Positions 3,468 through 40,124 of a DNA stretch of 64,000 nucleotides are shown here, piece after piece (positions within the stretch are counted from its first letter, which is position 1; every line of letters begins with the position of its first letter). The notes below the pieces were generated by a model. The model was not told where the DNA came from. It saw only the letters and a program-made list of their open reading frames with translations, and made no database searches. The position numbers and the translations under genes are program-made. Source of the DNA: Roseospirillum parvum. GTDB lineage: Bacteria; Pseudomonadota; Alphaproteobacteria; Rhodospirillales; Rhodospirillaceae. The stretch is taken from NCBI RefSeq assembly GCF_900100455.1, contig NZ_FNCV01000001.1, positions 289,093-353,092 of the forward strand. The letters are read 5' to 3'.

Positions 3468-4775
<1,308 letters not shown>

Positions 4776-36460: not shown

Positions 36461-36829
36461 TCAGTGGCCCTCCCGGCGATCGGCGACCGGCAGTGCCGCC
36501 GCCTCGGGGGAGACAGCGCGGGGCTTGACCATGGGCAGCGGCATCACCTCGCCGGCCGGACGCGGCAACTCGGCCAGGGTGCGGATCATGCCCGGAGCCA
36601 GCGGCACCATGCCGAGGCGGCTTTCGGCCAGCCGCTGGATGCGCGACGGGTCGGACAGGTAGGCCCACTCGGCGTTCAGCACGTGGATGGCCTGACGGTC
36701 GGCCGCCGCCTGACGCTCGGCGGCGGCCAGATCGTCTTCCAGCGACTGCACCTGATACTTGAGCAGGAACAGCCCGACCCCGGCCAGGGTGGCGACGGCA
36801 AGCCAGAGAAAGGTCGACAGACGCATCAT
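36461..36829 (-). CDS. ftsL: Cell division protein FtsL-like
   Basis: A small bitopic protein of 122 residues. A membrane helix (about 5-24, [20 protein letters not shown]) is followed by a periplasmic coiled coil ([45 protein letters not shown]). The [10 protein letters not shown] segment is the conserved FtsL motif of alphaproteobacteria. FtsL forms a complex with FtsB and FtsQ to activate FtsWI. It lies between rsmH (4-nt overlap) and ftsI, the canonical position. Confidence 0.92.
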
Positions 36830-37833
36830 CGGCCCGGGCCCTCCCCACTCAGCGGGGGATCGGCCGGCCAGGCCGGCGCTTCCGTGCGCTCGGCAATGCG
36901 CAGGCGGGCCGAGCGGGCGCGCGGGTTGGCGGCACACTCGGCGTCGCTTGGGGTGCGCGGCCGGGGGGTGATCTCGATCAGGCTGGGGGCCGGCCGCTCG
37001 GTCGGCGGCAGGTGGCGCGAGCCGCCCGGGGCGCGGGCCGAGCGGGCGCGCACGAAATCCTTGACGATGCGGTCCTCCAGCGAATGGAAGGAGACCACGG
37101 CGAGGCGCCCGCCGGCGGCCAGCAGGCGTTCCGCCCCGAGCAGGCCCCGGGTCAACTCGCCCAGCTCGTCGTTGACCGCGATCCTCAGGGCCTGGAAGGT
37201 GCGGGTCGCCGGATCGATGGTCGGTGCGCCCCGGGGCCGCTTGCGGGGCAGGGGGATGGCGCCGCGCACCACCTCGGCCAGATCGTGGGTGCGGGTGAAG
37301 GGGGCCTCGGCGCGGCGACGGACGATGGCCCGGGCGACCCGGCGGGCGTGGCGTTCCTCGCCCAGGCGGGCGATCAACTGGGCCAGATCGCCCTCCTCGC
37401 GCTGGTTGACCAGATCGGCGGCGCTGGTCCCCTCGCGCCCCATGCGCATGTCCAGCGGCCCGTCGTGGGAGAAGGAGAAGCCCCGCTCGGCCTGATCGAG
37501 CTGCATCGAGGACACGCCCAGATCCAGCGCCACGCCATCGACCCGGGTGATGCCCCGCGCGGCCAGAAGGTCGGCCAGAAGGTCGGCCATGTCGCCGAAA
37601 CAGCCGGACAGCAGGTCGAAGCGCCCCGGATGCTCGGCGGCCAGGGCCTCGGCGTGGGGGCGCACCGTGGGGTCGCGGTCGATGCCGACCACCCGGCCGG
37701 CCCCGGCGGCAAGCAGGCCGCGGCTGTAGCCGCCGGCCCCGAAGGTGCCGTCGACGATGATCGAGTCGGGGCGCGGGGCGAGGGCCTCGATGACCTCGTC
37801 CAGCATCACCGAAAGGTGGGGCGCGCGGCTCAT
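36826..37833 (-). CDS. rsmH: 16S rRNA (cytosine(1402)-N(4))-methyltransferase
   Basis: Methylates N4 of C1402 in 16S rRNA using S-adenosylmethionine. The 335-residue product opens with [13 protein letters not shown] and has the SAM site [64 protein letters not shown] and the C-terminal [14 protein letters not shown] follow. It overlaps mraZ and ftsL by 4 nt each. Confidence 0.97.
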
Positions 37834-38294
37834 TTGGCGCCTCCCGAGCCGGGCATGGGGATGCTCAGCTTGGTTTCCACGGCGCGCTGACGGGCCGTGT
37901 CGCGGGCTTCCCGGTGGCGCTCCGGGTGCCAGATCTCGAAACGCTTGCCGACCCCGACGAAGGCCGCCTGATCGTCGATCCCGGCGTGCTCGCGCAGCTC
38001 GGCCGGCAGCAGGATGCGGCCCGTCTCGTCCCAGTTCAGGTGGTGGGTGGCGCCGAAGATCAGACGCGCCGCGTCCTCGTGCTCGGGCGAGAAGGCGGCG
38101 AAGCTCTCGGTGCCGTCGGCCAGGCGCTCCATCTCGTCGGAGCCGACGCCCATGATGCAGGCGCCGTGGAAGCTGGGGAACACGAACACCCCCGGCGTGG
38201 TGTTCGCGGCCAGCACGGTGCGGAAGCCGGCCGGCACCGAGACCCGGCCCTTCCGATCCACTTTGTTCACCGTGGTTGACAGGAACAGCTTCAT
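37830..38294 (-). CDS. mraZ: Transcriptional regulator MraZ
   Basis: First gene of the dcw cluster and repressor of its promoter in characterised species. The 154-residue product contains two SpoVT/AbrB-like halves: [25 protein letters not shown] and [22 protein letters not shown]. Start ATG 38294 has an AAGG-containing site and fits the conserved N-terminus. About 195 nt upstream lies a long array of 10-nt-spaced TGG boxes overlapping the candidate promoter, consistent with autorepression by the ring-shaped MraZ oligomer. Confidence 0.95.
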
Positions 38295-38486
38295 CGCCTT
38301 CCCCCGAAGGGCCGTGCCGGGCGCCCGGCCGTGGGTGGCTGGGGGCACATCGGATGCCGGCTCCCGGCCGGTCCCACCCCGCCACGCGGTCTTGCCGTGA
38401 AAGGGACGGGCTGGCGGATCGGGCAACGGGGTCCGGGGCCATGGTCAGCGGCCCCTGGAACCCGGGTGGGGACACCACCGGGAGCA

Positions 38487-38572
38487 TGGACCAATATGGT
38501 ATCTCATGGGATGGCATGGGAGTCAATGGAGCCGGATGGCTCTTCTTGGGACGCCGAATGGGAAAACATGGG
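38487..38572 (+). promoter_or_regulatory. Array of MraZ-type TGG boxes with 10-nt period
   Basis: TGG begins at 38487, 38497, 38507, 38517, 38527, 38537 and 38547, seven in a row at exactly 10 nt. After a 2-nt phase shift it recurs at 38559 and 38569. Five boxes read TGGG (38507, 38517, 38547, 38559, 38569). MraZ is known to bind direct TGGGN repeats separated by 5 nt upstream of mraZ, usually three or four copies. This array is about twice as long and lies on the strand opposite to mraZ transcription. Confidence 0.8.
38498..38526 (-). promoter_or_regulatory. Candidate mraZ (dcw) promoter
   Basis: On the minus strand TTGACT (38526-38521), a 17-nt spacer and GATACC (38503-38498), with an AT-rich patch just after. 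It lies inside the TGG-box array, so occupancy by MraZ would cover both promoter elements. The -10 is weak; TACCAT at spacing 19 is an alternative. Confidence 0.45.
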
Positions 38573-38842
38573 CTGCGGGCGCTTTTTCTGACGTCCAGCC
38601 ATGGTCGCCAGAATCGGCGCGATTCCGCCCTTCGGCGACAATTGCCAAGGGGTGGGGCAATACTTTGTTCGAAAAGTGTTCTTTCTCGGCCGGGGCGGGG
38701 AGGGGGACGCCCGGGCATGGGACGCCATGGGACGGCCCCGCCGCGCCGACGGCGCAAAAGAAAACCGCCGCGCGGTGGCGGCGGTCGGTCGCTTTGCCCC
38801 GGGGGGCGGGCTTTCGCCACCCCCCGGGGCAGCGGCTGGGGG

Positions 38843-39085
38843 TCAGGGATCGTCGGCGGCGTCCTCGGCCTGCTGGGCGGCGTCCTCGATCGACTGGGCG
38901 GCGCCGTCGGTTGCCTCGTTGAGGCTCTCGCCGGCTTCCTCGACCGCGTCGCCGACCTCTTCGACGGCGTCTTCCACCTGTTCGGTGGCCTGTTCGTCAT
39001 CCGACCGGGGCGGCTGCAGAAGCAGCACGGCCGCCAGGGCAATGACCGCCGCAACCAGGATGGCAAGCAACAGGTTCCTGTTCAC
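38843..39085 (-). CDS. Small single-pass membrane protein with a C-terminal amphipathic repeat region
   Basis: Not recognised as a named family. The 80 residues start with GTG 39085, with GGAG 8 nt before it. Residues 1-25 are a membrane helix or uncleaved signal anchor ([21 protein letters not shown]). Residues 28-80 are strongly acidic with repeated [18 protein letters not shown]-like heptads, predicting an extended amphipathic helix outside the membrane. It resembles entericidin-type or apolipoprotein-like small envelope proteins in composition only. It is divergent from the 91-residue gene at 39404. Confidence 0.7.
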
Positions 39086-39696: not shown

Positions 39697-40124
39697 CCCC
39701 GCGTCAGGTGGCCTGTAAGCCGGGTTCTGTCCACGGGCCCCCGAGGGGGTCCGCTGGATGGCCATTCGTCTGCGACGCCCGTTGCCGGACGCCTGGCGCG
39801 ACACACCCGGACGGCGGCGCGAAAACCCGCCTGCCGACAGGGGCCCCGAAGGACCCGCCGGCCTGCCGTCCCTATTCGGTCTTGCTCCCGGTGGGGTTTG
39901 CCCTGCCGCCCCCGTCGCCGGGGGCGCGGTGCGCTTTTACCGCACCCTTTCACCCTTGCCGCCGGACCGGCGAGCCGGTGCGGTGGCGGTCTGCTCTCTG
40001 TGGCACTTTCCCTGAGGTTTCCCTCGCCGGGCGTTACCCGGCACCGTGTTTCCATGGAGCCCGGACTTTCCTCCCCGGTTCGCCGGGCGAACCGGGGCGG
40101 CCATCCAGCCACCTGACGCGGGGG
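39697..40124 (-). ncRNA. rnpB: RNase P RNA, bacterial type A
   Basis: Catalytic RNA that matures tRNA 5' ends. On the minus strand the universally conserved segments appear in order. GAGGAAAGTCCGGGCTCC follows the P1/P2 start; CACAGAGAGCAGACCGCC, GGGTGAAAGGGTGCGGTAA and AGACCGAATAGGGA come next; and ACAGAACCCGGCTTACAGGCC lies at the 3' end. The ends pair as helix P1 over 17 bp (39696-39712 with 40108-40124). Size about 428 nt, as expected. Its promoter appears to be inside an upstream palindromic repeat. Open frames running through this region are not genes. Confidence 0.97.

Follow-up and report, generated by a model that had tools for sequence, protein, structure and literature searches.

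The window analysed here, a 64-kb stretch of the Roseospirillum parvum genome, contains mraZ and the next gene of the dcw cluster, rsmH, and the likely promoter upstream of mraZ is interleaved with an array of TGG-centred boxes on the opposite strand. The features of the locus, in order of coordinate, are as follows.

36826 to 37890, minus strand: rsmH (mraW), translated stretch, the next dcw gene after mraZ (Pfam PF01795, 313.4 bits)
37830 to 38294, minus strand: mraZ, 154 aa, with its ATG at 38294 (Pfam PF02381, 63.8 bits, cut-off 23)
38295 to 38497, minus strand: leader of ~200 nt from the -10 candidate to the mraZ start, with a presumed transcript start near 38491
38487 to 38549, plus strand: seven TGG boxes exactly 10 nt apart, on the strand opposite to mraZ, in registers +4 to -2
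38497 to 38519, plus strand: three strong core boxes with TGG at 38497, 38507 and 38517 (ATGGTA, ATGGGA, ATGGGA; scores 12.9, 13.0 and 11.0)
38498 to 38503, minus strand: -10 candidate GATACC, separated from the -35 element by a 17-nt spacer, its position conserved in relatives
38521 to 38526, minus strand: candidate -35 element TTGACT, with a box on either side; 48 of 54 genomes of the same order have TTGAC followed by a box
38527 to 38549, plus strand: three weaker in-phase boxes upstream of the core, with TGG at 38527, 38537 and 38547 (scores 3.1, 1.4 and 7.3), whose registers hold a box in 31, 15 and 10 of 46 relatives
38559 to 38571, plus strand: two strong boxes after a 12-nt step, with TGG at 38559 and 38569 (scores 12.6 and 10.0)
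38717 to 38732, plus strand: distal pair, two perfect ATGGGA boxes with a 10-nt step, the pair lying ~206 nt upstream of the -35 element
38763 to 38786, minus strand: terminator-like hairpin upstream of the mraZ promoter (two overlapping sites, against 0.6 expected by chance)
39700 to 40116, minus strand: rnpB, the RNase P RNA gene, upstream (Rfam RF00010, 263.3 bits)

In addition to its Pfam match, the mraZ product matches the NCBIfam MraZ models (best 147.3 bits, below the cut-off of 162) and MraZ chains in the PDB at E values of 2e-6 to 1.1e-4, and its translation carries two DxxxR motifs, DRKGR and DETGR. A single-sequence AlphaFold prediction of MraZ alone gave a mean pLDDT of 39.5, which is too low for a reading of fold or ring, and no paper was found on the MraZ PDB entries 9qlg, 9qlr and 9sx6. 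The original prediction had placed the -35 and -10 candidates of mraZ within the array, and TTGACT and GATACC indeed lie among the boxes as the likely dcw promoter. A strict E. coli consensus scan over the region found no promoter, despite the arrangement TTGACT-17 nt-GATACC; across 48 genomes, the -10 position reads GATACC in 18, TATCCC in 17 and CATACC in 7.

Farther upstream, an 80-codon open frame with a GTG start (38843 to 39085, minus strand) would encode a product with a single hydrophobic segment and then a repeat-like acidic tail. With the hairpin, this frame and rnpB all lying upstream, the gene surroundings indicate that transcription of mraZ most likely starts between 38763 and 38294. 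A comparable leader has been measured in R. sphaeroides, where the available text of PMC5089854 gives a 268-nt 5' UTR before mraZ and no nearer start; two Rhodobacteraceae genomes, Paracoccus limosus and one other, have the end of the -10 candidate 267 and 265 nt ahead of the presumed mraZ start, so that the promoter distance is similar in these two genomes and a long leader is shared with the window. This agreement backs the promoter placement indirectly, as support rather than proof, because the species differ, both of these Rhodobacteraceae genomes lack TTGAC, and one of them (L256) also lacks a run of three boxes. The likeness to the R. sphaeroides UpsM region, as far as the available text describes it, ends at the leader: no terminator-like site was found in the ~200-nt mraZ leader of the window, and an UpsM-like terminator there was rejected for that reason.

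The array proper comprises seven plus-strand TGG copies starting at 38487, 38497, 38507, 38517, 38527, 38537 and 38547, with an exact 10-nt period, and two more plus-strand boxes at 38559 and 38569, upstream of the minus-strand mraZ, just as had been predicted. An extra TGG lies between boxes at 38512, and another at 38467 is in register with the array, yet has a background-level score. Within the 64 kb, this is the sole run of five or more TGG or CCA copies at a 10-nt period. When the whole assembly (3.5 Mb in 37 contigs) was scanned for the exact four-box pattern, the matches were the present array and one site on contig C18, while the reversed control gave one match; further arrays elsewhere in the genome were thus rejected, the one extra site equalling the control. 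Three box pairs with one mismatch are found elsewhere in the genome.

The array was then compared across the order Rhodospirillales, with 61 genomes searched, mraZ found in 54, and all 54 upstream regions read (window included). The 10-nt phase is kept in these relatives: an antisense 10-nt run of at least three boxes is present in 52 of the 54 genomes, and the longest exact antisense run is one box in 1 genome, two in 1, three in 6, four in 23, five in 12, six in 5 and seven in 6. Runs of three or more on the mraZ strand occur in a single genome (maximum 3, once). At other periods from 5 to 19 nt runs reach at most 3, and at the doubled period of 20 they reach 5. If steps of 9 to 12 nt are allowed, the window has a chain of nine, the longest of the 54 (the next being 8, 8, 7, 7 and 7), and chains on the sense strand reach at most 4; the 12-nt step of the window is also present in one relative, L035. 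Hence, the claim that the array is unusually long stands for the nine-box chain but not for the seven exact copies, which recur in 6 of the 54 genomes and so are not unique, and a gammaproteobacterial metagenome-assembled genome (MAG) even has eight. By these comparisons, the array is real and conserved, and long but not singular, and its placement on the opposite strand is more unusual than its length.

A register map was built from 46 relatives aligned on TTGAC, with registers numbered relative to the box just before the -35 element and register +1 filled by selection. From register -3 to +5, boxes are present in 2, 10, 15, 31, 46, 46, 42, 31 and 1 of the 46 relatives, and a core of the form CCA-TTGACNC-CCA-N7-CCA-TGANATA-CCA is visible across them. 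The window fills registers -2 to +4, that is, all seven registers used in the order. Since the registers are bounded and the window fills every one, seven boxes appear to be the full size of a bounded operator rather than part of an open-ended repeat.

The boxes differ greatly in quality. Scored with a matrix built from the relatives' boxes (relatives' median 10.5, lower quartile 8.0), the boxes at 38487, 38527, 38537 and 38547 reach 1.4 to 7.3, with 38487 at 5.1, and the five others 10.0 to 13.0. The base before TGG is A in eight of the nine and T in one. The nine boxes therefore cannot be treated as equals, as had first been supposed, because four of them are weak; the array likely consists of three strong boxes at the core, weak boxes that extend it in phase and, beyond a 12-nt step, two strong boxes upstream. 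A more restrictive reading, in which only the core and the upstream pair count and the run of seven amounts to three real boxes plus weak sites that fall in phase by chance, deserves serious weight, even if we think it is probably not correct. In its favour, all four weak boxes score below the relatives' lower quartile, and the full ATGG[G/T]A consensus is rare in outer registers of the 46 relatives (0 of 10 occupied boxes at register -2, 7% of 15 at -1 and 16% of 31 at +4). Against it, registers 0, +4, -1 and -2 are occupied in 31, 31, 15 and 10 of the 46 relatives, well above the background CCA frequency of 0.027, and occupancy drops sharply at registers -3 (2 of 46) and +5 (1 of 46). Moreover, register +1, which is filled by selection, matches the full consensus in just 15% of cases, since it is overlapped by the -35 element; a weak fit by itself is therefore no proof of an idle box.

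Beyond the order, a promoter-operator motif (CCATTGACNCCCATN5CCCATGNNAT, up to two mismatches) was searched for in 289 alphaproteobacterial genomes and found in 104, with none for the reversed control. mraZ is present in 241 of the 289 and in 102 of the 104 motif genomes; this strict motif is absent from the other 139 of the 241. Where motif and gene positions could be compared (71 sites, with another 34 outside the comparison), 68 sites lie on the contig and strand of an MraZ-domain match, within 650 nt upstream of it; of the three exceptions, G168 is likely explained by a contig break, G301 is probably a chance site and G172 is a second site. Ten loci fetched by the motif (L181 to L190) all have mraZ just downstream and, being picked by motif, were excluded from the orientation count. 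Among 30 other alphaproteobacterial mraZ loci that lack the strict motif, chosen as the best MraZ scores in the 241 genomes, 23 carry three or more boxes in an antisense run and no sense run, and one more (L225) has an antisense run of three together with a sense run of four further upstream. In a wider sample, the motif occurs in 24 of 67 alphaproteobacterial genomes, compared with none of 182 other Pseudomonadota, counted by hand, many of which come from one family and all of which were sampled irrespective of mraZ presence.

The picture in other bacteria is reversed. From at least 118 eight-box stretches, 40 loci were chosen; 39 genomes were searched, mraZ was found in 32, and the best 30 were read, representing by record title Bacillota, Actinomycetota, Bacteroidota, Chloroflexota, Gammaproteobacteria and others. 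A sense run of at least three precedes mraZ in 22 of these 30 loci (15 of three, 6 of four and 1 of eight), and antisense runs of three or more occur in none; the eight loci with no run of three include one misread in the rsmH frame (L253) and one that is doubtful (L245). The two remaining mraZ genomes are Rhodobacteraceae and were counted apart, one having an antisense run of four and the other no run of three. In addition, A precedes TGG in 79% of 242 boxes in the same order and in 83% of 96 boxes in the class arrays, and G does so in 96% of 69 boxes in other bacteria, taken from 21 of the 22 arrays with the eight-box array excluded. The other bacteria sampled thus mostly have sense GTGG boxes, whereas Alphaproteobacteria mostly have antisense ATGG boxes inside the promoter, so orientation, place and box differ together, and the predicted position of the boxes on the strand opposite to mraZ holds for both the window and the Alphaproteobacteria examined. 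As far as sequence comparison can tell, this inverted ATGG architecture within the promoter is the notable feature of the locus and is common in Alphaproteobacteria. Neither a description of an alphaproteobacterial MraZ site nor a binding or expression study of an MraZ from this class was found in the literature searched, which was mostly open-access text, so an earlier description elsewhere is possible.

Comparison with known MraZ systems places the array near, but not within, the established type. TGG-centred repeats with 10-nt spacing upstream of mraZ are shared with E. coli, and E. coli K-12 has three sense boxes at this place (TGGGAAATTGTGGGGCAAAGTGGGA). The E. coli boxes were reportedly described by Eraso et al. 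in 2014, a study cited in PMC8475190. They carry a G before TGG and lie on the mraZ strand after the -10 element, as the available text of PMC7761207 also states for strand and place, whereas the window has mostly A, the opposite strand, a position among the -35 and -10 elements, and seven plus two boxes. In B. cenocepacia, the same source describes four 7-nt repeats with 3-nt spacers and a GTG core, downstream of the -10 element and over the start site, and reports that MraZ binds a fragment from the dcw start region carrying these four repeats. That site resembles the window in its 10-nt period at the dcw promoter, and there the repeat-bearing fragment is known to bind MraZ; it differs from the window in its GTG core and its place past the -10 element, the window having mostly ATGG over the likely promoter. 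Mollicute sites, for which the accessible part of PMC8475190 gives AAAGTG[T/G] after Fisunov et al. 2016 and which are said to occur nowhere else in the M. genitalium chromosome, are likewise direct repeats at the mraZ promoter but have a different flank. Another long array belongs to the gammaproteobacterial MAG noted above (CALHMG010000223.1, L161), whose eight-box 10-nt array before mraZ, starting at 3579, is unlike that of the window in lying on the mraZ strand after the likely -10 element and in being mostly GTGG. The window thus shares with published MraZ sites the TGG-core direct repeats at 10-nt spacing and the place upstream of mraZ and the dcw cluster, but it lacks the GTG core and the location on the mraZ strand downstream of the -10 element; because of these two differences, we term it a variant rather than a canonical MraZ box array.

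MraZ is a widespread bacterial regulator of division genes. Its site has been characterised as a repeated GTG motif that is conserved even in distant bacteria (PMC7761207, in the text available), and in E. coli and M. genitalium MraZ acts as a repressor of the dcw genes (PMC8475190, accessible part). Comparison supports the original reading of the array as an MraZ operator, through its position before mraZ, its conserved phase and its co-occurrence with mraZ. On this basis, we consider it highly probable that the antisense 10-nt boxes interleaved with the promoter work like an MraZ operator, through which MraZ would repress itself and the division genes. In such a scheme, an MraZ ring would seat successive subunits on successive boxes along one face of the DNA, and bound MraZ would cover the -35 element, the -10 element and the start site together and block RNA polymerase, so that MraZ would repress its own gene and the division genes. 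The weak boxes and the strong upstream pair may raise MraZ occupancy and thus tune the repression threshold. The original reading went further in proposing that the nine boxes could wrap around one or two MraZ rings and give tighter or graded control of the division genes.

An additional element may be the distal pair at 38717 to 38732, which could be a second operator to which an MraZ ring bound at the core bridges, looping ~200 bp of DNA. We offer this as a guess and regard it as unlikely, although it can hold together with the promoter-operator explanation. The distal boxes of the window are perfect, and far pairs in either orientation are found in 9 of the 54 same-order genomes (window included), with 13 pairs in 60.6 kb, whereas 65.5 kb of downstream sequence yielded no pair and two scrambled patterns had no match in the far region. 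Nevertheless, 45 of the 54 genomes have no far pair by the pattern used, the length of upstream DNA covered being variable; the orientation and distance of the pairs vary, from -197 to -445 and once -866; and one of the far pairs (L029, -225) is made up of consecutive 5-nt repeats. As a separate observation, the 16-base box pair of the window's distal site recurs in L301 (G056 contig 52), where mraZ lies on a different contig.

Taken together with the class comparison, the promoter-operator explanation can be extended into a speculative proposal in which we place rather little confidence: in Alphaproteobacteria the MraZ operator may have been turned round, its boxes changing from GTGG to ATGG, moving to the other strand and coming to lie among the -35 and -10 elements, such that repressor and polymerase would compete for the same bases instead of the repressor forming a block just after the -10 element, and here and in some relatives the distal pair would be a second anchor for a DNA-looping ring. 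An inverted operator with an altered box and a built-in promoter, spread through Alphaproteobacteria, would offer a natural experiment in the way ring-shaped repressors recognise DNA. The motif may also provide a simple means of finding the dcw promoter in Alphaproteobacteria.

One may argue that the boxes bind another protein, such as CtrA, CenR or a nucleoid protein with a 10-nt phase, and owe their place before mraZ simply to that gene being the first of the dcw cluster. There are published hints in this direction, since the available text of PMC9275681 reports a CenR ChIP signal upstream of mraZ in R. sphaeroides, albeit with no CenR motif, and that of PMC3616915 lists a CtrA motif upstream of mraZ in S. 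meliloti. However, the strict pair ATGGGA-N4-ATGGGA is nearly confined to mraZ, with 27 of its 32 places in the 61 genomes lying at most 1.5 kb from the gene (3 for the reversed control), and arrays that precede mraZ in other phyla share the TGG core and the 10-nt step. Moreover, rsmH was found in three of the seven mraZ-less relatives, from two genera, and in none of these three is there a run of three or more boxes in the 600 nt before rsmH. The partial counter-example is G191 (L222), a reduced genome of 0.8 Mb with no mraZ match, in which rsmH is immediately preceded by the retained promoter motif and three of the four usual boxes; it reads as a recent mraZ loss, and it weakens the notion that loss of mraZ always entails loss of the array. 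The second mraZ-negative genome with the motif (G092) says nothing on this point, as its contig continues for only ~90 nt past the motif. On balance, binding by another protein is improbable.

Finally, chance or a simple tandem repeat can be dismissed as the origin of the array: TGG repeats with a 10-nt period do exist elsewhere (at least 118 eight-box stretches, with an mraZ-like frame in 1 of 118 among the matches listed), but the longest run on either strand was 4 in first-order Markov simulations of 64 kb (in 2 of 200) and also 4 in those of the 606-nt upstream region (in 12 of 20,000), the spacers of the array are unlike one another, and the array is conserved upstream of mraZ. Apart from the boxes, a TTTGTTAA element lies upstream of the array in four relatives (L005, L008, L012 and L016) and upstream of rsmH in the mraZ-less L060; the S. 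meliloti paper, in its available text, lists the motif TTTGTTAACCAT (PMC3616915).
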